The position numbers and the translations under genes are program-made. Below, one piece after another: positions 1,786 to 15,548 of a DNA stretch of 15,548 nucleotides (positions within the stretch are counted from its first letter, which is position 1; every line of letters begins with the position of its first letter). Source of the DNA: JBFLYE01 sp040756715 [NCBI: bacterium] (GTDB lineage Bacteria; UBA9089; UBA9088). The notes under the pieces are model-generated. The model was not told the origin of the DNA and searched no databases. It saw nothing but the letters and a program-made list of their open reading frames with translations. The stretch lies in NCBI GenBank assembly GCA_040756715.1, contig JBFLYE010000100.1, positions 1 through 15,548 of the forward strand. Reading direction: 5' to 3'.

Positions 1786-2562
1786 ATGAAGGTTTTATTT
1801 ATTGGTGATATTGTGGGAAGGAAGGGAAGGAGGATTCTTAAGGAGATAATTCCAAGATTAAAGGGAGAAAGGCACATAGACCTAATAATTGCAAATGGCG
1901 AGAATGCCGCAGGTGGATTTGGGATTACAAAGAAGGTAGCAGATGAAATATTTGCTTGTGGGGTTGATATTATAACAGGTGGAAACCATATATTTGCAAA
2001 GAAGGAAATCTATGAAATAATGGATTCCCTTCCTATTTTAAGGGCACTTAATTATCCACCCAGTGTTCCAGGAAGGGGATTTATTTTTAAGCCCTGCAAA
2101 GGAGAAAATGTTTGTGTAGTAAGCCTCTGTGGACGGGTGTTTATGGATTCCCTTGATTGCCCATTCAGGGCAATTGATGGCCTTTTGGAAGAGATAAAAG
2201 AAAAGGCAAAGATAATCATTGTTGATGTCCATGCCGAGGCAACCTCTGAAAAGGTTGCTCTAGGCTGGTTTCTTGATGGAAGGGTCTCTGCTGTGATTGG
2301 AACCCATACCCATATTCCAACCGCTGATCCTAAAATCCTTCCAAAGGGAACGGCCTATATCACTGATGTTGGAATGGTTGGGGCAGGAAATTCTGTTATA
2401 GGTATAAAAAAGGAGCTTGTGCTTAAGAGATTTCTCCTTTTAATTCCGGTTAGATTTGAAATGGCAGAGGATGAAGGAATCTTTGGCGGAGCTTATATTG
2501 ATATAGATGAGAAAACAGGCAAAGCTTCATCCATTGAGCAAATTCAAATTCAAGGGCTATAA
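1786..2562 (+). CDS. YmdB/TIGR00282 family metallophosphoesterase
   Basis: This 258-aa cytoplasmic protein belongs to the dimetal calcineurin-like family that includes Bacillus YmdB, reported to be a 2',3'-cyclic nucleotide phosphodiesterase. The expected metal ligands are visible: D8 in GDIVG, E39 and N40 in NGENAAGG, N67 and H68 in GGNH, H149 in DVHAEATSEK, and H174 and H176 in GTHTHIPTAD. The segment after GNH reads IFAKKE where many homologues have TWDKKE, a mild variation outside the ligands. The length is normal for the family. The 3' end overlaps the convergent glycosyltransferase gene by 6 nt. The exact substrate in this organism is unknown. Confidence 0.9.
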   Translation: MKVLFIGDIVGRKGRRILKEIIPRLKGERHIDLIIANGENAAGGFGITKKVADEIFACGVDIITGGNHIFAKKEIYEIMDSLPILRALNYPPSVPGRGFIFKPCKGENVCVVSLCGRVFMDSLDCPFRAIDGLLEEIKEKAKIIIVDVHAEATSEKVALGWFLDGRVSAVIGTHTHIPTADPKILPKGTAYITDVGMVGAGNSVIGIKKELVLKRFLLLIPVRFEMAEDEGIFGGAYIDIDEKTGKASSIEQIQIQGL

Positions 2563-3684
2563 TCCTTCATAAAGCCTCTCTATATCTTCTATCAGCCTTT
2601 TCTCTGTATATTTTTTTGAATTTTCCCTTGCCTTTTCTCCCATTTCCTTTGCCCTTTCTTTGTCTAAAATAATGGTTTTTATAGCATCTGCTAATGCTTC
2701 GGGATTCTTTGGAGGAATAAGGATGCCTGTATCAGGAGAGACAAGGGTTGAAACACCTCCCACATCTGTTGCAACAACGGGAATTCCAGATGCCTGTGCT
2801 TCAATGATTGCAACGGGAAGCCCCTCATTTAATGATGATAAAACAAAGCAATTAAGATCTGCATAAATAATCTCAAGGTCTTTTCTAAATCCAAGGAAAA
2901 GGACATTTTTCTCTATTCCCAGGTCTTTAGCCTTTTTCTCCAATTCCTTTCTAAGATAGCCATCTCCCGCGATGACAAAAAGGGCATCAATCTCTTTTAA
3001 AACAATAGCAGATGCTTCTAAAAATGTTCCTATATCCTTTATGGGAACAAGCCTTGCAATTGTTCCAATCAGGGGTTTGTCAGAAATCCCAAGCTCATTT
3101 CTTAAAATACCCTTTTTTTCAGAAATGTCATAAAACCTATCAAGGGAAAGGCCTAGGGGAATAACGATAACCTTATTTCTATTTCCTATGCCAAATTTTA
3201 AAATCTCATCCCTCTGGCTCTCGGTTAATGTAATTATCCTTGTTGAGATAAGGGAAAGCCATCTTTCAATGATAATAAAAAATAGGGTCTTTAGCCTTCC
3301 AAAGTATGAATGTAGGGTGTGTCCATGGAATGTATGGATGATTATAGGAACGCCGCAAAGCCAGGCACAAAGCCTTCCTAACATCCCTGCTTTGCTCAAG
3401 TGGCTATGCACAATATCTGGTTTTATCTTCCTGATTATGCCGATAAGCTTAAAAAATGTGATAATATCCTTTATGGGAGAGATCTCCCTTTGAAGCTCTG
3501 GAATAAAGATTATATCAATATTTCTATTTTTTGCCTCAGAAAGCATACTTCCCTCCTCCTTTCCCTCTTTTCCAACCACAAGATATGTCTTAAATTTCTC
3601 TTTAAGACCTTCGCTTAACAATATTGTATGGATAGAGGGACCTCCAATGTTAAGACGGGTGATTATCCTTAAAACTGTTTTCAT
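2557..3684 (-). CDS. GT4-family glycosyltransferase
   Basis: This 375-aa enzyme has a GT-B fold. The N-terminal acceptor domain opens with the glycine-rich loop TRLNIGGPSIHT and contains PDIVHSHLSKAG and TFHGH. The C-terminal donor domain contains IGTIARLVPIKD, VIAGDGYLRKEL and the EX7E signature, with glutamates at 287 and 295 (NEGLPVAIIEA). GT4 enzymes are retaining transferases that move a sugar from a nucleotide or lipid donor, often onto LPS, exopolysaccharide or lipid precursors. The gene starts one base after the upstream nitroreductase stop and probably shares its transcript. Divergence from lpxB makes an envelope glycan role plausible, but the sugar and acceptor cannot be read from the sequence. 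Confidence 0.88.
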   Translation of the reverse strand: MKTVLRIITRLNIGGPSIHTILLSEGLKEKFKTYLVVGKEGKEEGSMLSEAKNRNIDIIFIPELQREISPIKDIITFFKLIGIIRKIKPDIVHSHLSKAGMLGRLCAWLCGVPIIIHTFHGHTLHSYFGRLKTLFFIIIERWLSLISTRIITLTESQRDEILKFGIGNRNKVIVIPLGLSLDRFYDISEKKGILRNELGISDKPLIGTIARLVPIKDIGTFLEASAIVLKEIDALFVIAGDGYLRKELEKKAKDLGIEKNVLFLGFRKDLEIIYADLNCFVLSSLNEGLPVAIIEAQASGIPVVATDVGGVSTLVSPDTGILIPPKNPEALADAIKTIILDKERAKEMGEKARENSKKYTEKRLIEDIERLYEGL

Positions 3685-3685
3685 T

Positions 3686-4336
3686 TTACTTTGGCCTTCC
3701 TACAGGGACGATGTATAATGGTTGCTCCATATTCTCCATACCAATTACTCCCTTTACCTCCTCATCATAAAAAGCACCAATAGAGACCGAGCCCAATCCC
3801 AAGCTAATTGCTTGAAGATGAAGGTTCTGCACAGCATGACCTGCCTCTATGTGCACATACCTTATCCCCCTCTCTCCATATTTTCCTGTTGTTCTCTCAT
3901 ATATTGCTGAAACAACAAAAACACAGGGAGCATCTTTTACCCAACTCTGATTTAGGGCTACCCTACAGAGTTCTTTACGCTTATCAATCTTTGAGATTCT
4001 AATTAATCTATGGGCTTGAGGGATGTATTTGTAGACTCCAGGGCCAAGTTCCTTTGCTAAACCTACAACTACATATACCTCTAAGGGATAGAGTGCACCC
4101 GCTGAAGGAGCGGTTCTAAAACCCCTTTTATCAGTTACTCCTTGGGTAGCCCAAAGGAGCTGGGAGATTTCAGATAGGGAAATTGGTTCATTTTTATATT
4201 CCCTTATTGACCTTCTCTTTACCAATGCCTCCTCTAGAGAGATATTGCTTTTATACCTAGGTTTGGGTAACTCTATAGTCTCCTTTCTATCCAAATTTAC
4301 TTGAGAGAGATACATCAATAAAACCAAAACCTCCAT
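3686..4336 (-). CDS. SagB/ThcOx-type nitroreductase family protein
   Basis: This 216-aa FMN-dependent oxidoreductase has the stand-alone SagB-type pattern: LPKPRYKSNISLEEALVKRRSIREY near the start (about residues 23-47), RTAPSAGALYPLE (74-86), then an ERTTGKYGERGIRYVHIEAGHA block and GLGSVSIGAFYDEEV. SagB relatives oxidise azolines in peptide maturation, but short solitary members like this are common and of unknown substrate. No YcaO, precursor peptide or other azole-forming gene is nearby, so peptide modification is not supported. The short hydrophobic beginning (MEVLVLLMYL) may be a remnant of an N-terminal anchor. A later start at the eighth residue is also possible. Confidence 0.82.
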   Translation of the reverse strand: MEVLVLLMYLSQVNLDRKETIELPKPRYKSNISLEEALVKRRSIREYKNEPISLSEISQLLWATQGVTDKRGFRTAPSAGALYPLEVYVVVGLAKELGPGVYKYIPQAHRLIRISKIDKRKELCRVALNQSWVKDAPCVFVVSAIYERTTGKYGERGIRYVHIEAGHAVQNLHLQAISLGLGSVSIGAFYDEEVKGVIGMENMEQPLYIVPVGRPK

Positions 4337-6919: not shown

Positions 6920-8109
6920 GGGAGGAGATATTAAAAAACTTAAGCATAGAAACAGAAGGAAAGATTATTTTCCTTGTTATGGATGGCCTAGGTGGTCTTC
7001 CAATAAATGGAAAAACAGAGCTTGAAGCTGCAAATAAGCCAAACATTGATAGCCTATGCAAAGAATCAATACTTGGGCTTATGGATCCAATTGGCCCGGG
7101 GGTAACGCCGGGCTCAGGCCCTGCACATTTGGCTCTTTTTGGCTATGACCCTTTAAAATATGATATTGGAAGGGGGCTTTTGTCTGCTTTGGGAATTGGC
7201 TTTCCCCTTTCTAGCTCTGATGTTTGTGCAAGGGGAAACTTCTGCACAATAGAAAATGGGATAATAACGGATAGGAGGGCAGGAAGGATAGCGACAGAGA
7301 AAAACAGGGAGCTTTGTGAAATTCTTTCAAAGATAGAGATAGAAGGTATTAAAATATTTACCATCCCTGAAAAAGAGCATAGATTTGTTGTTATATTTAG
7401 GGGAGAAGACCTATGTTCTTGTCTTTTAGATTCAGACCCGCAAATTACAGGTGTTCCTCCATTAAATGTTCTACCAAAGATAGAGGTTGCTACAGGGTCA
7501 GCAGAAATTGTAAATCAATGGATTTCTAAAGCAGGTGAGGTTTTAAAGGAGCAATATCCAGCAAATATGGTTTTGCTGCGTGGTTTTGCAAGCTATCTTA
7601 ATATCCCAAGCTTTAAGGAATTGTATAAGCTTAATTCTTGTTGTATTGCAACATACCCAATGTATAAAGGGCTTGCAAGCCTTGTTGGAATGGATGTTCT
7701 GGATTGTGGGGAAAGCTTAGAAACCCAAGTTAATACTTTGCATTCAAGCTTTTCTTCTTATAACTTTTTCTTTTTCCATATAAAAGGAACGGACAAAAAA
7801 GGAGAAGATGGAGATTATGAAGGAAAGGTAAAGGTAATTGAGGATGTAGACAAAATTATTCCAGAAATACTTAAGTTAAATCCAGATCTTTTTGTCATAA
7901 CAGGAGACCATTCAACGCCAGCCCTTTTAAAATCCCATTCCTGGCATCCGGTTCCCTTAATCCTTTATTCAAAATATTGCATTCCAGATGGGATAAAGGA
8001 ATTTTCTGAAAGAAGCGCATCAAAAGGCTCTTTGAGGAGGTTTCCCATGCAAGAGCTAATGGGGCTTGTCTTAGGATATTCAAAGAAGCTTATAAAATAC
8101 GGAGCATAA
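6916..8109 (+). CDS. apgM: Archaeal-type cofactor-independent phosphoglycerate mutase
   Basis: ApgM interconverts 3- and 2-phosphoglycerate without 2,3-bisphosphoglycerate, through a phosphoserine intermediate and a dimetal centre. The 397-aa product shows D23 in LVMDGLGG, the serine motif TPGSGPAH (64-71, probable nucleophile S67), LFGYDPLKYDIGRG, and C-terminal ligands GDHST (D331, H332) and HSWHP (H341, H344). This is the archaeal-type family in the alkaline phosphatase superfamily, about 400 aa, distinct from the longer bacterial GpmI. The start is a TTG overlapping the tpiA stop as TTGA. Pairing with tpiA makes a small lower-glycolysis module. Confidence 0.93.
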   Translation: MREEILKNLSIETEGKIIFLVMDGLGGLPINGKTELEAANKPNIDSLCKESILGLMDPIGPGVTPGSGPAHLALFGYDPLKYDIGRGLLSALGIGFPLSSSDVCARGNFCTIENGIITDRRAGRIATEKNRELCEILSKIEIEGIKIFTIPEKEHRFVVIFRGEDLCSCLLDSDPQITGVPPLNVLPKIEVATGSAEIVNQWISKAGEVLKEQYPANMVLLRGFASYLNIPSFKELYKLNSCCIATYPMYKGLASLVGMDVLDCGESLETQVNTLHSSFSSYNFFFFHIKGTDKKGEDGDYEGKVKVIEDVDKIIPEILKLNPDLFVITGDHSTPALLKSHSWHPVPLILYSKYCIPDGIKEFSERSASKGSLRRFPMQELMGLVLGYSKKLIKYGA

Positions 8110-8165
8110 AAGGGATTTAGGAATTCCAATTATTCAATCACGGCACTAAATACAATTGTAAATTT

Positions 8166-8495
8166 TCATATTTCAACGAGGGGACAATCTGCCCATAATA
8201 TCTCAAGCTGATAAAAAGACCTGTATTCTTCTTCAAATATATTAACAATAACACTTCCATAGTCAATAAGCGTCCACCCCTTTGCATCTTCTATATGTAA
8301 GGGTTTTATATTTTTCTTTATTGCTTTATAGATTTCCTCAATAATTGCCTTTGTTTGAACATCAGAGCGCGAGGTTAGAATAATAAGAAAATCTGAGATA
8401 GGGGATTTTTTGGCTATATTAAAAACCTTTATATCCTCTGCCTTCTTTGAAAAAGCTGCCTTAACTACCTTTTTTGCTATGCTTTTTGGGTACAT
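8166..8495 (-). CDS. rsfS: Ribosome silencing factor RsfS
   Basis: RsfS (Iojap/YbeB) binds ribosomal protein uL14 and blocks subunit joining when nutrients are scarce. The 109-aa product shows SDFLIILTSRSDVQTKAI, HIEDAKGWTLIDYGSVIVNIF and EEEYRSFYQLEILWADCP, all characteristic of the family. The start overlaps the end of yqeK by 19 nt, so the two are coupled. The yqeK-rsfS order is widespread; the nadD gene usually found just upstream is missing from the window, and a CBS protein takes its place. Confidence 0.92.
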   Translation of the reverse strand: MYPKSIAKKVVKAAFSKKAEDIKVFNIAKKSPISDFLIILTSRSDVQTKAIIEEIYKAIKKNIKPLHIEDAKGWTLIDYGSVIVNIFEEEYRSFYQLEILWADCPLVEI

Positions 8496-9025
8496 ATACT
8501 ATTCCACAAGGAAACTGTCCTTGGATGAAGGAGGGAGCCTTTTTTAAGAACATATTCTATTTTTTTCTTTATGACCTCCCTTAAAACACCCTCAATATCC
8601 CTTTTTGCCCTATCCAATAAATCTCCATCTGGACAGGTTTCAAGGTAATCAGCGATATAAAGAATCTTTGAAAGCAAGGGCATATTTGCCATTCCTGTTG
8701 AATGAAATTTTATTGCATTAAGAATTTCTTCCTCTTCAATATTAAATCTTTCCTTTGCCATACAAGCACCAATTGCTCCATGCCAAAGCCCTGGTTCTCT
8801 TTTTTCTATTCTATCAAGCCCTATTTTATATTTTTCAATAAGGCTTTTCATCTCATCCTTTGGAATGTCTTTGGCAATATCATGGAGGTAGGAGATGAGC
8901 TCTAATTTTTCTTTATCAACATTGTAATGAGATGAAATCTCACAAGCAATCCTTTTTACCTCTTGAATATGAAAAAGCCTTTCCTTTGTCATAAGAGATG
9001 CAAGCTCTTTTTCTATATCCCTCAT
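8477..9025 (-). CDS. yqeK: YqeK-type HD-domain Ap4A hydrolase
   Basis: This 182-aa HD-domain protein matches the YqeK family, iron-dependent enzymes that split diadenosine tetraphosphate symmetrically into two ADP. Metal and active-site positions are visible: H19 in LFHIQEV, H48-D49 in YLHDIAKDIP, H82 in LWHGAIGA, H108 in IKFHSTG, and D126 in ILYIADYLE. It lies 20 nt after the CBS gene stop and overlaps rsfS at its end, so it is probably the middle gene of a three-gene transcript. No strong Shine-Dalgarno sequence precedes the start. Confidence 0.9.
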   Translation of the reverse strand: MRDIEKELASLMTKERLFHIQEVKRIACEISSHYNVDKEKLELISYLHDIAKDIPKDEMKSLIEKYKIGLDRIEKREPGLWHGAIGACMAKERFNIEEEEILNAIKFHSTGMANMPLLSKILYIADYLETCPDGDLLDRAKRDIEGVLREVIKKKIEYVLKKGSLLHPRTVSLWNSICTQKA

Positions 9026-9045
9026 TCTATTTTATCCGTTAAATC

Positions 9046-9438
9046 CTATTTCCTTCCTGCAATTGCCTTTACAATATCGCCGCAAGAGATTATCCCAGAG
9101 GAAAAAAGCCTTGTTTTTTCTTTCTTTTCTTCATCTATAACCAACAAGCGATGGATATTATTCTCTACCATAACCCTTGCTGCCTTTTCTACATCCTCTT
9201 CTTTCCCAATTGTAATTATAGGCTTTGTCATAATCTCAGAAATCCTTATATTTTCAAGGTCTTTTCCAAAAAACCTTGTAATATCCATCTCTGAAAGGAT
9301 TCCAGAAAACTCATTTTTCTCATTCACCACAATAATCCCAGAGATGTCATACTCAGCCAATACACAGGCTGCCTCCTTTACAGAGAGCTCATCTGCTACG
9401 GTTATTACACCTTTTGTCATAATATCTTTAACCTTCAT
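9046..9438 (-). CDS. Tandem CBS-domain protein
   Basis: This 130-aa protein consists of two CBS motifs only, at about residues 7-56 (KDIMTKGVITVADELSVKEA, then GILSEMDITR) and 70-128 (SEIMTKPIITIGKEEDVEKA, then ISCGDIVKAI). Such Bateman modules bind adenine nucleotides such as AMP, ATP or S-adenosylmethionine and act as energy or redox sensors, usually by contacting a partner. It has the strongest Shine-Dalgarno in the window (AGGAGGT, five bases before the ATG). It is transcribed divergently from the AcsD-AcsA fusion gene across a 110-nt intergenic region. A regulatory link to CODH or to yqeK is possible but unproven. Confidence 0.9.
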   Translation of the reverse strand: MKVKDIMTKGVITVADELSVKEAACVLAEYDISGIIVVNEKNEFSGILSEMDITRFFGKDLENIRISEIMTKPIITIGKEEDVEKAARVMVENNIHRLLVIDEEKKEKTRLFSSGIISCGDIVKAIAGRK

Positions 9439-9443
9439 TTTTT

Positions 9444-9450
9444 ACCTCCT
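9444..9450 (-). promoter_or_regulatory. Shine-Dalgarno of the CBS gene
   Basis: AGGAGGT on the minus strand lies five bases before the ATG. It contrasts with the absence of such a site at most other promoter-proximal genes here. Confidence 0.85.
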
Positions 9451-9461
9451 AAATTTTTTAA

Positions 9462-9490
9462 AGAATAATCAATTTTCCTTTTCTTGTCAA
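9462..9490 (-). promoter_or_regulatory. Promoter of the CBS-yqeK-rsfS operon
   Basis: On the minus strand, a perfect TTGACA (9485-9490) and TATTCT (9462-9467) are 17 nt apart. The predicted +1 is near 9455, giving a leader of about 17 nt that carries the AGGAGGT site. Confidence 0.7.
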
Positions 9491-9507
9491 ATTTTTTTGC
9501 AAAATCT

Positions 9508-9536
9508 TTGACCTTTTAAAGGTCTTAATGTAAAAT
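9508..9536 (+). promoter_or_regulatory. Promoter of the AcsD-AcsA fusion gene
   Basis: TTGACC (9508-9513) and TAAAAT (9531-9536) are 17 nt apart, with a predicted +1 near 9543. Only about six bases would precede the ATG at 9549, and there is no Shine-Dalgarno sequence. Confidence 0.8.
9510..9524. promoter_or_regulatory. Palindromic operator candidate in the CODH promoter
   Basis: GACCTTTTAAAGGTC is a perfect 7-1-7 inverted repeat (GACCTTT, T, AAAGGTC). It overlaps the last four bases of the -35 and the first part of the spacer, centred about 26 bases upstream of the predicted start. A dimeric protein bound there would block RNA polymerase. The regulator is unknown. Confidence 0.55.
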
Positions 9537-9548
9537 TTTTGTTTAATT

Positions 9549-12500
9549 ATGGATATACCAAAGGAAACCTACAAAACATCTATCATAGAGGGAGAGATTG
9601 GTGGATTAAAAATAGGGGGGGAAAATACAATGCCCTTCTATTTATTTGAAGGCAATATGCCAAATCCGCCCAGGATTGCTTTAGAGATATGGGATGAGCC
9701 TCCCAAGGATTGGCTACCAAATGTTGTTGAGCCATACAAAGATGTGATAAACGATCCTGTTTCCTGGGCAAAAAAGGCAATTTCCTATGGTTGCGATATG
9801 GTCTGTCTTAAGCTAATAGGCACAGACCCCTTAGGAAGCAATAGGTCTCCCCAAGAAGCCGCTGCTGTGGCAAAGAATGTTTGTGATAATATAGATCTTC
9901 CCTTAATTGTTTTAGGATGTGGAAATATAGAAAAGGATTCAGTTACCCTAAAGGAGGTAGCCTCCGCTTGCGAAGGAAGAAATATCTTGCTTGGAGCAGC
10001 CACCGAGGATAATTACAAAGTAATTGGTGCATCTGCATTAGCCTATAAACACAATGTCTCTGCCCAAACCCCAATAGATGTTAATCTATCAAAGCAATTA
10101 AATATTTTATTGGGAAACCTCGGGCTTTCTGATAATAAGATTTTAATTGACCCAACCGGTTCTACCTTGGGCTATGGCTTGGAATATACATACTCAGTCA
10201 TTGAAAGGATAAGGCTTTCTGCCCTTCAAGCAGGGGATGAGAAGCTTAAGATGCCCATATTTGTAGAGATAGGAAAGGATTGCTGGAAGATAAAGGAGGT
10301 AAGGGAGGATAACCCACAATGGGGTGATATAGAAAAAAGGGGAATCCTCTGGGAGGCAATTAGCGGGCTTTCCTTTCTCCTTGCTGGCTGTAATCTTCTT
10401 GTGATGAGACATCCCTCTTCTCTGAAACTCCTTAAGGAGATGATAAAAGAGCTCATGGAGCTTAAAGAGGAAGAGAAAGAGGTTAAAAAGGAGGCAAAAA
10501 AGGAGGAACATATTTATGTGGCAAGGGAGGAAAAAGGGGAAGAAAAGATAAAAAGGCATCCAGGTGATCACTATAAGCCATCCTGGATAGATGAGGATAT
10601 TTGTGAATTCCTTGAGAAAAAGGAGGCTTTGGTTTATTCAGCAAATGAAGGCTTTAAAGATAAGGCAAAGAAGGATGGAGTAAGGACGGTCTTTGAGAGA
10701 GCAGAGGAAATAAAGCCCTGCCCATTTGGCGAAAAGGGTGCTTGTTGTAAGCATTGTGCAATGGGTCCTTGTCGATTAAGCTTTAAGGATGAATCCCTTG
10801 AGGAGCAAGAGGAGGGACAAAAAACAGGGCTTTGTGGAGCAACCATAGGAACAATCTCTGCCAGGAATTTTGCTAGAATGATTGCCGCAGGTGCCTCTGC
10901 ACACTCTGACCATGGAAGGGAGGTAGCCGAAATATTGATTGCGGTAGCAGAGGGAAAGGCACCCGGTTATAGCATAAAGGATATGGAAAAGCTTTACAAT
11001 GTGGCAAAAGATTTTGGTATTGAAACTGAAGGAAAGGATGAATATGCAATTGCCAAAGAATTGGGAGAAAAGGCATTAGCTGAATTTGGAAAGCAACAGG
11101 GCGAGCTTACCTTTATAAAAAGGATGCCCCTTACCAGGCAGAATGTTTGGAAAAAATTGGGTATGACACCGCGTGGCATAGACAGAGAGGTGGTTGAAAT
11201 AATGCACAGAACACACATGGGCGTTGACCAGGATTACAGAAATATCCTTCTTCAAGGCTCTAGGTGTGCATTAGCCGATGGATATGGTGGCAGTATGATT
11301 GCAACAGAATTGCAGGATATTCTCTTTGGCACACCAAAACCTGTGCTCTCTCGGGTAAATCTTGGGGTTTTAAGGGAAGATTGTGTTAATCTGGTAATCC
11401 ATGGCCATGAGCCCCTACTCTCTGAGATGATTGTGGTTGCCTCCAAAAATCCAAAAATGGAGGAACTGGCAAAGTCTGTAGGGGCAAAAGGGATAAATTT
11501 AGCCGGCATCTGCTGCACGGCAAATGAAATTTTAATGCGTCATGGTGTGCCTTTAGCTGGCAATCTCCTCCAACAAGAATTAGCCATAGCAACCGGCAGC
11601 GTTGAGGCAATGGTAATAGATGTCCAATGCATCTTCCAATCCCTGCCAAAGGTTGCCCAATGCTACCATACAAAGATTATTTCAACCTCAGCTAAGGGCA
11701 AGATCCCTGGGGCATTGCACATTGAATTTGACCCACACAATGCCCTTGTCTCAGCAGAAAAGATTGTTGAGACAGCCATCTTAAATTTCAAAAACCGAAT
11801 TAAAGAAAAGGTAGAGATTCCCCAAGAATCTATGGATTTAGTGGCTGGCTTTACCCATGAATATGTGAATTATATGCTGGGTGGAAAATTTAGAGCCTCC
11901 TATTGGCCCTTAAATGACAATATTATCAATGGGAAAATAAGGGGTGTGGTTGGTGTGGTTGGCTGTAATAACCCAAGGGTAGCCCTGGATAGTGTTCATA
12001 TTCCTCTGGTAAAGGAGCTGATAAAAAATAATGTTTTGGTGCTTCAAACCGGATGTGCTGCGATAGCCTGTGCAAAGGCAGGTTTACTAACCCCAGAGGC
12101 GGCAAAATTTGCGGGAGAAGGATTAGCACAGGTATGCGAGGCAATTGGAATACCTCCAGTTCTCCATTGTGGTTCTTGTGTTGACAATTCAAGGCTTTTG
12201 GTAGCCGGGGCCGAAATGGTTAAGGTGGGTGGCTTGGGCGATGATGTATCAGACCTTCCCATTGCCGGATGTGCGCCAGAATGGATGTCAGAAAAGGCAA
12301 TTGCGATTGGCCAATATTTTGTAGCCACAGGTCTTTTGGTTGCCTTTGGCGTAAATTTTCCCACCCTAGGAAGCAAGGCTACCACACGGCATTTATTTGA
12401 GGAATACGAGGGTTTAACCGGCGGAATGTGGGCATTTGAAAAAGACCCTTATAAATTAGCCAGGCTTTTAATTGAGCATATTGACAAAAAGAGGGAGGCA

Positions 12501-12569
12501 TTAGGCATAAACAAACCAAAGGAAAGAATCCTCTACGATATGGAAGCAAGGAGGGAGCTTAAATTCTAA
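9549..12569 (+). CDS. AcsD-AcsA fusion: corrinoid Fe-S protein small subunit joined to Ni-CO dehydrogenase
   Basis: This 1006-aa protein has two parts. Residues 1-303 match AcsD/CdhD, the TIM-barrel small subunit of the corrinoid iron-sulfur protein: IGGENTMPFYLFEGNMPN, PVSWAKKAISYG, SPQEAAAVAK, VLGCGNIEKD, LLGAATEDNYK, GYGLEYTYSVIERIR, ending LLVMRHPSSLKLLKE. A charged Lys/Glu linker spans about 304-345. Residues 346-1006 are an AcsA-type CODH: C391 and C399 (D cluster); C400, C403, C408 and C429 (B cluster); AAGASAHSDHGRE (H452, H455); and the C-cluster motifs HGHEP (618-622), ICC (C655/C656), QC (C694), GCNN (C806), TGC (C836) and GSC (C877). K916 lies in CAPEWMSEKA. All known ligands are present. 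AcsA reduces CO2 to CO; AcsD helps carry the methyl group. No other acs gene lies nearby. Confidence 0.95.
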   Translation: MDIPKETYKTSIIEGEIGGLKIGGENTMPFYLFEGNMPNPPRIALEIWDEPPKDWLPNVVEPYKDVINDPVSWAKKAISYGCDMVCLKLIGTDPLGSNRSPQEAAAVAKNVCDNIDLPLIVLGCGNIEKDSVTLKEVASACEGRNILLGAATEDNYKVIGASALAYKHNVSAQTPIDVNLSKQLNILLGNLGLSDNKILIDPTGSTLGYGLEYTYSVIERIRLSALQAGDEKLKMPIFVEIGKDCWKIKEVREDNPQWGDIEKRGILWEAISGLSFLLAGCNLLVMRHPSSLKLLKEMIKELMELKEEEKEVKKEAKKEEHIYVAREEKGEEKIKRHPGDHYKPSWIDEDICEFLEKKEALVYSANEGFKDKAKKDGVRTVFERAEEIKPCPFGEKGACCKHCAMGPCRLSFKDESLEEQEEGQKTGLCGATIGTISARNFARMIAAGASAHSDHGREVAEILIAVAEGKAPGYSIKDMEKLYNVAKDFGIETEGKDEYAIAKELGEKALAEFGKQQGELTFIKRMPLTRQNVWKKLGMTPRGIDREVVEIMHRTHMGVDQDYRNILLQGSRCALADGYGGSMIATELQDILFGTPKPVLSRVNLGVLREDCVNLVIHGHEPLLSEMIVVASKNPKMEELAKSVGAKGINLAGICCTANEILMRHGVPLAGNLLQQELAIATGSVEAMVIDVQCIFQSLPKVAQCYHTKIISTSAKGKIPGALHIEFDPHNALVSAEKIVETAILNFKNRIKEKVEIPQESMDLVAGFTHEYVNYMLGGKFRASYWPLNDNIINGKIRGVVGVVGCNNPRVALDSVHIPLVKELIKNNVLVLQTGCAAIACAKAGLLTPEAAKFAGEGLAQVCEAIGIPPVLHCGSCVDNSRLLVAGAEMVKVGGLGDDVSDLPIAGCAPEWMSEKAIAIGQYFVATGLLVAFGVNFPTLGSKATTRHLFEEYEGLTGGMWAFEKDPYKLARLLIEHIDKKREALGINKPKERILYDMEARRELKF

Positions 12570-14250: not shown

Positions 14251-14279
14251 TTGCTTTAATCTTTCTCTTTGCTTATAAT
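14251..14279 (+). promoter_or_regulatory. Promoter of the ADP-forming acyl-CoA synthetase gene
   Basis: TTGCTT (14251-14256) and a perfect TATAAT (14274-14279) are separated by 17 nt. The predicted +1 is 14286, one base before the GTG start, so the message would be essentially leaderless. Confidence 0.75.
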
Positions 14280-14286
14280 TATTTTG

Positions 14287-15548
14287 GTGCATAAATTCTT
14301 TTCGCCTGAAAGCATAGCCATTGTGGGAGCTTCCCGAGAAAGGGGAAAGGTTGGCTATGAGATTTTTTCAAACATTATCCTTTCAGGCTATAAGGGTAAG
14401 ATTTTCCCTATAAACCCCTCGGCTGATTTTATTTTAGAAAGAAAATGCTTTCCCTCCCTTTCTAATATTCAAGAAAAAATAGAGCTTGCTATTGTTATTG
14501 TAAAGAATACCATTGTCCCCAATGTATTAGAGGAATGTGGAAGCCTTAATATAAAGAATGCAATTATTATAAGTGCGGGGTTTAAGGAGGCTGGAATTGC
14601 TGGGTTAAGCTTAGAGAATAAAGTAAAAGAAATTGCCAAAAATTATGAAATAAGGATAATTGGCCCAAATTGCCTTGGCTTAATTGATACCTACACGCCT
14701 TTAAATGCCTCATTTTCCCGCATATTTCCAGAGAAAGGAGGCATCTCATTTATCTCCCAATCAGGGGCATTATGCACAGCAATCCTTGATTGGGCAAAAG
14801 AAAAGAATATAGGATTTTCAAAGTTCGTAAGCTTTGGGAATGGATGCGATGTAGCTGAGATTGAGCTTATTGAATATCTCATAGATTGTCCGAACACATC
14901 GGTAATTGCCCTATATCTTGAAGGGACAAAGGATGGAAAAAGATTTATTGATATAGCCAGCAGGTCAAAAAAGCCTATTATCTTATATAAATCTGGAAAA
15001 ACAGATGCCGGGAAAAGGGCAATCTCATCCCATACAGGCTCTCTGGCAGGAAGTGAAAAAGCCTGGGATGCCGCAATTTCCCTTTCTGGGATAATAAAGG
15101 TGGATTCTATTGAAAAGCTCTTTCTTTTTAGCCATTCCTTTGCCACCCAACAAAGACCTAAGGGAAGGAATATAGTTGTGATTACAAATGCAGGAGGGCC
15201 TGGCATAATAGCATCCGATTGCCTTGTTGCGAAAAATATCTCCCTTTCCTCCCTTCCAAAGGAAACAGCCAACCTTCTTAAGGAAAACCTTCCTCCCTCT
15301 GCCTCTGTCTATAACCCGGTTGATATACTAGGGGATGCCCGATCAGATAGATACAATTTTGCTATAGAAACCATTAGCAAAGAGCCTAATGTAGATGGAA
15401 TAATGGTTATCTTAACCCCTCAGGCAATGACAGAGATAGAAAAAACAGCAAGGGCAATAATAAAATTCAAGGACAAAAAGCCCATTTTTCCTGTTTTTAT
15501 GGGAGGAGCAGAAATTGAGCCTGCAATTTCTTTATTTAAGGAGCACAA
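14287..15548 (+). CDS. ADP-forming acetyl/acyl-CoA synthetase, 5' part
   Basis: Acd-type enzymes convert acetyl-CoA (or another acyl-CoA), ADP and phosphate to the acid, CoA and ATP, making ATP by substrate-level phosphorylation. The visible 420 codons run off the window. The N-terminal CoA-binding domain shows SPESIAIVGASRERGKVGYE, IFPINPSAD and IISAGFKEAG. The next domain shows IIGPNCLGLIDT, ISFISQSGALCTAILDWA and SSHTGSLAGSE, with H249 as the expected phosphorylated histidine. ITNAGGPGIIASD and YNPVDILGDA follow. The GTG start (VHKFFSPES) is chosen because the promoter's +1 lies one base upstream and homologues begin similarly. Whether the ATP-grasp beta part is fused or separate cannot be seen. 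Confidence 0.9.
   Translation, partial: MHKFFSPESIAIVGASRERGKVGYEIFSNIILSGYKGKIFPINPSADFILERKCFPSLSNIQEKIELAIVIVKNTIVPNVLEECGSLNIKNAIIISAGFKEAGIAGLSLENKVKEIAKNYEIRIIGPNCLGLIDTYTPLNASFSRIFPEKGGISFISQSGALCTAILDWAKEKNIGFSKFVSFGNGCDVAEIELIEYLIDCPNTSVIALYLEGTKDGKRFIDIASRSKKPIILYKSGKTDAGKRAISSHTGSLAGSEKAWDAAISLSGIIKVDSIEKLFLFSHSFATQQRPKGRNIVVITNAGGPGIIASDCLVAKNISLSSLPKETANLLKENLPPSASVYNPVDILGDARSDRYNFAIETISKEPNVDGIMVILTPQAMTEIEKTARAIIKFKDKKPIFPVFMGGAEIEPAISLFKEH

Follow-up and report, generated by a model that had tools for sequence, protein, structure and literature searches.

How the methyl carrier reaches and leaves the core of the CO dehydrogenase/acetyl-CoA synthase (CODH/ACS) complex, an ancient enzyme system of carbon fixation, is a live question, and it is raised in an unusual form by a 15,548-nucleotide stretch of bacterial DNA (contig JBFLYE010000100.1 of assembly GCA_040756715.1, hereafter the window). 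At positions 9549-12569 of its plus strand, AcsD, the small (delta) subunit of the corrinoid iron-sulfur protein (CFeSP), appears to be joined to AcsA, the nickel CO dehydrogenase (CODH), in one polypeptide. The source genome resembles the well-studied bacterial CODH/ACS and CFeSP systems (Moorella, C. hydrogenoformans and C. autoethanogenum; PDB 1mjg, 7zkj and 9fzy) in its subunits, folds, cluster ligands and full-length AcsB of the bacterial type; however, AcsD and AcsA are separate proteins in those systems, whereas here they form one chain. We therefore asked whether this join is genuine, whether both of its halves are complete, where it came from and what it might do.

The gene consists of one frame of 1006 codons, opened by an ATG and carrying zero internal stops, and Pfam places CdhD at residues 21-253 and Prismane at residues 399-967 of its 1006-residue product. 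The AcsD half (residues 1-303; 9549..10457, plus strand) scored 152.3 bits with PF03599 (cut-off 24.8) and, over residues 2-303, 395.8 bits with the NCBIfam delta-subunit model NF003376 (cut-off 280). The acetogen-type AcsD model NF040759 gave 317.1 bits, under its cut-off of 430, and the delta models TIGR00381, NF003377, NF003375 and NF003378 likewise fell under their own cut-offs. The CODH half (residues 356-1006; 10614..12566, plus strand) is of the CooS type, scoring 652.8 bits with TIGR01702 over residues 368-987 (cut-off 478), as against 61 bits with the archaeal Cdh-type model TIGR00314 (cut-off 781.3). Both domains were folded in an AlphaFold2 model built from 34 alignment rows (mean predicted local distance difference test score (pLDDT) 80.8; predicted template modelling score (pTM) 0.63). 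When compared by VIA-align against a fold-search list that consisted mainly of CODH chains, residues 355-989 of the model matched the D. vulgaris CODH 6vx1_A with a Z score of 60.8, while residues 1-303 matched the CFeSP small subunit 2h9a_B with a Z score of 44.5 (root-mean-square deviation 1.5, 302 residues aligned), as expected of a TIM barrel. A profile search of the source genome, a 1.55 Mb draft in 218 contigs that is 96% complete, found no other match to either half. These data confirm that the frame encodes a genuine AcsD and a genuine AcsA in one chain with both domains complete, as a first reading of the letters without database searches (the sequence-only reading) had proposed, together with the extent of the AcsD barrel at residues 1-303.

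The same reading held that the CODH half carries every expected ligand of the B-, C- and D-clusters, and this also proved correct. We checked 15 positions, whose roles we take from general knowledge of these enzymes: two D-cluster cysteines, four B-cluster cysteines, two histidines of the acid-base region, the C-cluster histidine and five C-cluster cysteines, and a lysine. All 15 are present in the window, as they are in the only other genome of the window's genus in our comparison set, which represents a different species (G001), and in 12 of 12 normal AcsA proteins of this or other phyla within the same alignment. By motif alignment, the D-cluster ligands C391 and C399 and the B-cluster ligands C400, C403, C408 and C429 lie at 10719..10835 (plus strand), and the C-cluster ligands H620, C655/C656, C694, C806, C836 and C877, with K916 at the catalytic-lysine position, lie at 11406..12296 (plus strand). 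These motifs fall within regions that align with solved CODHs (6t7j and the D. vulgaris chains). The spacing of the D-cluster cysteines is that of type II as defined in section 11 of PMC6344411, and, as far as Table 2 of that paper goes, the ligand set and residue order match those of CODH groups E-1 and F-1, for which a complete set is listed there.

A join of this kind in a draft genome of 218 contigs could have been produced by an assembly or sequencing error that removed a stop codon or brought two genes together. The sister species argues decisively against this. G001 carries the same AcsD-AcsA fusion in one frame, with 86% protein identity, and the codon alignment of the two genes covers 1006 of 1006 codons with zero gaps. 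Since the G001 fusion is gap-free and 86% identical, chance and assembly error are excluded, and we rejected an artefact, which the sequence-only reading had named as an alternative; with no second copy of either half in the source genome, we regard the probability of such an error as negligible. The nucleotide match between the two loci is limited to 9034-12568, so that the two species share the fusion together with the sequence just upstream of it and differ in the wider surroundings.

Substitution rates between the two species, estimated by the Nei-Gojobori (NG86) method as nonsynonymous (dN) and synonymous (dS) divergence, were dN 0.124 and dS 0.740 for AcsD residues 2-303 (dN/dS ~0.17), and dN 0.059 and dS 0.816 for CODH residues 386-1006 (dN/dS ~0.07). 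For the linker region (residues 304-385), dN was 0.297 and dS 1.285, with 62% amino acid identity and no gap codons. Because its frame is gap-free and its dN lies well below its dS, the linker appears to be constrained, though it changes faster than both of the domains that it joins. The two linkers have the stretch RHPGDxYKPSWIDEDI in common.

Where the linker begins and ends was determined from several sources. Four unfused, normal AcsD proteins end at about positions 303-310 of the fusion numbering, homology to normal AcsA proteins begins at about 354-370, and residues 306-362 have pLDDT values below 50 and are thus predicted to be disordered. (The model also falls below 50 at residues 389-398 and 401-408, around the D- and B-cluster cysteines, and over the last 14 residues.) We accordingly place the Glu/Lys-rich linker at residues 304-355 (10458..10613, plus strand), on composition, pLDDT and codon alignment; residues 304-353 have a net charge of -5. 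The charged linker is therefore where the sequence-only reading had put it, at about residues 304-345; its end was set too early, and at about 50 residues it is slightly longer than was first estimated.

The frame contains no ATG between residues 303 and 405, which rules out a two-gene layout with an ATG start for AcsA, as had been pointed out before. Two non-ATG codons within this interval, GTG 324 (10518..10520, plus strand) and TTG 361 (10629..10631, plus strand), could serve as internal starts, so a second product consisting of AcsA only remains conceivable. The cell might then hold both full-length fusion and free AcsA, released either by internal initiation or by cleavage of the exposed linker. 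The predicted disorder of the linker, the AAGGAGG-like stretch (aaaggaggaac) ahead of GTG 324 and the presence of TTG 361 in both species would suit such an arrangement; however, GTG 324 is GTT in G001, and TTG 361 lies just 2 nucleotides behind its GGAGG. On balance we consider the production of two products improbable.

We next examined how widely the fusion occurs. Our sample of the window's phylum, which is small and uncultured, comprised 19 genomes, 16 of them with AcsD, and AcsD was fused to a true AcsA only in the source genome (G000) and in G001. A profile search of G002, which belongs to the same family, returned no AcsD or AcsA match, and wherever AcsA was seen in other genera of the phylum it was a separate gene. 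The sequence-only reading had taken it to speak against a fusion if close relatives carried the two genes separately at this position. Such relatives exist outside the genus only, and within it the sister species is fused; the unfused AcsA of other genera therefore place the fusion event in the window's lineage and do not refute it. When the sample was widened to 386 genomes, an AcsD profile matched 49, including at least one weak match (G085) that we read as a cross-hit of AcsC. AcsD lay in a frame of more than 700 residues in six of these: G000, G001, G014, G018 and G017 of the window's phylum, and G063 of another. Outside the window's genus, the searched genomes showed AcsD in one chain with a CODH-fold protein only within the same phylum (G014, G018 and G017). 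Profile searches around G056, G058, G139, G275 and G042 took in 2, 3, 7, 7 and 3 genomes, respectively, those around G275 and G042 repeating genomes already included. Apparent fusion frames of 1150 and 1207 residues in G016 and G058 were rejected, having stop codons between AcsD and AcsA. In G058, a genome of another phylum, a single TAG splits the frame shared by AcsD and CODH (L032:5300-8920), and the CODH frame has an extension of about 190 codons ahead of its catalytic domain.

Named GTDB loci nearest to AcsD gave a view of the unfused arrangement. Among the best 80 of at least 534 relatives, in which records close to the source genome may be absent, none had AcsD and CODH in one open reading frame (ORF): the two occupied separate frames in 80 of 80. 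These acsD-acsA-acsB clusters come from Chloroflexota, Thermodesulfobacteriota, Spirochaetota and others. In 54 of the 80 the CODH frame begins between -400 and +300 nucleotides from the end of AcsD, directly following it, which is likely to be the ancestral layout; some of the remaining 26 are cut by contig ends. Since acsA usually follows acsD directly, the fusion is likely to have originated by loss of the stop codon between habitual neighbours, together with the gain of a linker. Several of these named loci (L094, L102, L104, L110, L114, L116, L119, L120, L123, L127, L132, L134, L136, L140, L142 and L144) carry AcsD frames of 505-573 residues, whose C termini are extended by about 200 residues without a CODH match.

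Phylogenetic analysis was used to ask where each half belongs. In a quick tree of 46 rows, the CODH half clusters with G001 and 11 unfused AcsA proteins of the phylum (SH-aLRT support 89, below the level starred by the tool). A horizontal origin of the CODH half, which groups with the phylum's own AcsA at this unstarred value, is hence unsupported. In a 37-row tree the AcsD half pairs with that of G001 (100/100), and the pair is unplaced within the phylum.

Taken together, we think it probable that the protein is a two-domain subunit of CODH/ACS that arose by fusion of neighbouring genes and whose covalent tether holds the methyl carrier on the core. Neighbouring acsD and acsA would have fused in the lineage of the genus, leaving the intact domains connected through a disordered linker about 50 residues long. 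The CODH part would dimerise as usual and reduce CO2 to CO, and AcsB, encoded elsewhere, would bind it through the AcsB N-terminal domain. AcsD, hung on the N terminus of CODH, would recruit AcsC to form CFeSP, so that the methyl carrier would stay tied to the CODH/ACS core with AcsC-AcsD near AcsB, and AcsD and AcsA would be held at a fixed ratio of 1:1 despite the scattering of the genes for the complex. The flexible linker would let CFeSP swing between its methyltransferase and an opened AcsB. Translation as one product, assembly into the complex, tethering, kinetic benefit and stoichiometry are inferred here, and the tether and fixed stoichiometry are plausible in that they fit published structures. 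In the part of PMC12289521 that treats the complex, an AlphaFold3 model has the beta subunit of CoFeSP in contact with the ACS N-terminal domain, a similar CoFeSP conformation is reported as observed in C. autoethanogenum, and large motions of ACS are described from structures; by its title, PDB 9fzy is a CODH/ACS-CoFeSP complex. With a lead of about 50 residues between it and the N terminus of CODH, it is plausible that AcsD could extend to the CoFeSP site at ACS.

Several observations weigh against this proposal. No part of the protein is less conserved than the linker (60% identity between the two species at residues 304-345), whose dN/dS of about 0.23 comes from just 82 codons without a significance test. 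At a pTM of 0.63, the AlphaFold2 model does not fix the placement of AcsD relative to CODH. The fusion of AcsD to a true AcsA was also found only in the two sampled genomes of this genus, other relatives being without it. Alternatively, the fusion could be real and translated but selectively neutral, with a stop codon lost between neighbours, assembly proceeding as usual and the linker having no role; a single event would suffice for this, given how common the adjacency of acsD and acsA is, the fusion to a true AcsA was seen in one genus only, and the linker is the fastest-changing part. We nevertheless hold neutrality to be unlikely, because the join has survived a divergence of dS ~0.8 without a gap codon, with linker dN well below dS and the motif described above shared by both species, and because the same phylum shows at least two further joins of AcsD to a CODH-fold protein.

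These further joins bear on whether tethering is a wider habit. In G014 and G018, frame and alignment show AcsD followed by a CODH-like domain in one frame (909 and 910 residues; L034:10487-13213 and L042:4303-7032, respectively), with a normal AcsA downstream. This CODH-like domain keeps all six D- and B-cluster cysteines, Cys3-5 and the lysine, and is without the C-cluster histidine, Cys1 and Cys2; it could dimerise with true AcsA. In G017, AcsD is fused to an archaeal-type CdhA (1131 residues; L038:6889-10281, minus strand; TIGR00314 1047.8 bits, cut-off 781.3), and genes for a short AcsB of 606 residues and for AcsC come next; its AcsD groups with that of G083 and not with the phylum's others (98/98, on a long branch). 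G063, from another phylum, encodes an AcsB-AcsD fusion of 1183 residues (L037:2506-6054, minus strand). All of these resemble the window's protein in that AcsD is covalently joined to a core subunit of CODH/ACS or a domain like one, and differ in the partner: degenerate CODH-like in G014 and G018, CdhA in G017, ACS in G063.

In G003, G012, G013 and G015, AcsD ends in a C-terminal GxxExxY/PDDEXK_3 domain, recognised by profile in G013 and G003 and by comparison in G012 and G015. The adjoining CODH-like ORF of G012, G013 and G015 ends in a domain of the same type (by profile in G013 and G015, by comparison in G012), is without the histidine, Cys1 and Cys2, and has Arg in place of Lys. The AcsD-borne copies share 50-68% identity and the CODH-like-borne copies 67-71%, as compared with 23-32% between the two kinds. 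The ORFs lie at L041:5252-6664 and 7050-8936, L035:228-1634 and 2013-3761, L049:4684-6048 and 1998-3788 (both minus strand), and L039:11580-12965. The paired domains could act as a docking link. It is possible, if somewhat doubtful, that a tie between AcsD and a CODH fold is recurrent in the phylum and arose on at least two and probably three occasions (with AcsA, with a degenerate CODH-like protein and with CdhA), that in family f7 paired GxxExxY domains on AcsD and a degenerate CODH-like protein may have replaced the covalent bond, and that the methyl carrier is here integral to the core, in a bacterial equivalent of the methanogen acetyl-CoA decarbonylase/synthase (ACDS) complex. Against the placement of the CODH-like proteins in the quick tree, their rows meet other long branches, and those of G012, G013 and G015 are also of odd composition. 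The degenerate partners in sister families raise a further question, that of a CODH fold which persists with an incomplete C-cluster and may serve in docking or electron transfer.

The methanogen ACDS complex (alpha2-epsilon2, beta, gamma-delta) is the known system that the window's fusion would imitate: as set out in the relevant part of PMC11474084, CFeSP is standalone in acetogens and stably associated with CODH and ACS in methanogens. ACDS nonetheless consists of separate subunits and, in the sections of PMC6344411 covering it, has a Cdh-type CODH with extra E and F clusters, whereas the window's CODH is of the CooS type. Our literature searches turned up no paper that describes an AcsD-AcsA fusion, although the fused Ni-CODHs that the main text of PMC6344411 classifies and assigns to its Supplementary Table 1 may include one. 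The words fused, fusion, AcsD, CdhD, CFeSP and corrinoid are all absent from the text of PMC13056359, and the parts of PMC5736913, PMC2702500 and PMC6305446 covered hold nothing on such a fusion. The component parts are thus already known, and their joining appears new to us. A flexible tie between the carrier's small subunit and CODH would fix stoichiometry and limit straying of the carrier; a naturally tethered carrier would therefore offer a ready construct with which to image the methyl-transfer state by cryo-electron microscopy and to ask whether encounter with the carrier is rate-limiting.

The remainder of the complex is encoded outside the window, the CODH/ACS genes being scattered in the source genome. 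AcsB (736 residues; NF040764 1029.3 bits, cut-off 800; bacterial type) and AcsC (445 residues; NF003195 571.9 bits, cut-off 306) are both full-length and lie on two contigs, neither of which is the window's. The genome also encodes a 286-residue pterin-binding protein, which from its sequence we take to be AcsE-like. Within the window, the fusion is followed on its 3' side by ribBA and a small opposite-strand ORF, and then, as the third ORF downstream, by an acetate-CoA ligase alpha subunit (14269-15546, plus strand). The latter is cut by the end of the window and scored 519.5 bits with TIGR02717, under the cut-off of 567.15; such a ligase would be consistent with acetyl-CoA being turned into acetate and ATP.

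In addition, a CODH-like frame adjoins AcsD in G053 (L048:4800-6644) and has 0 of the 15 checked residues, its first 240 residues having been trimmed so that the D/B region lay outside the comparison. The G015 contig is identical to the named record Candidatus Desantisbacteria CG2_30_40_21, and that of G056 to the Candidatus Desantisbacteria record CG1_02_38_46; by the genome search, however, G015 falls within the window's phylum, and G056 does not.

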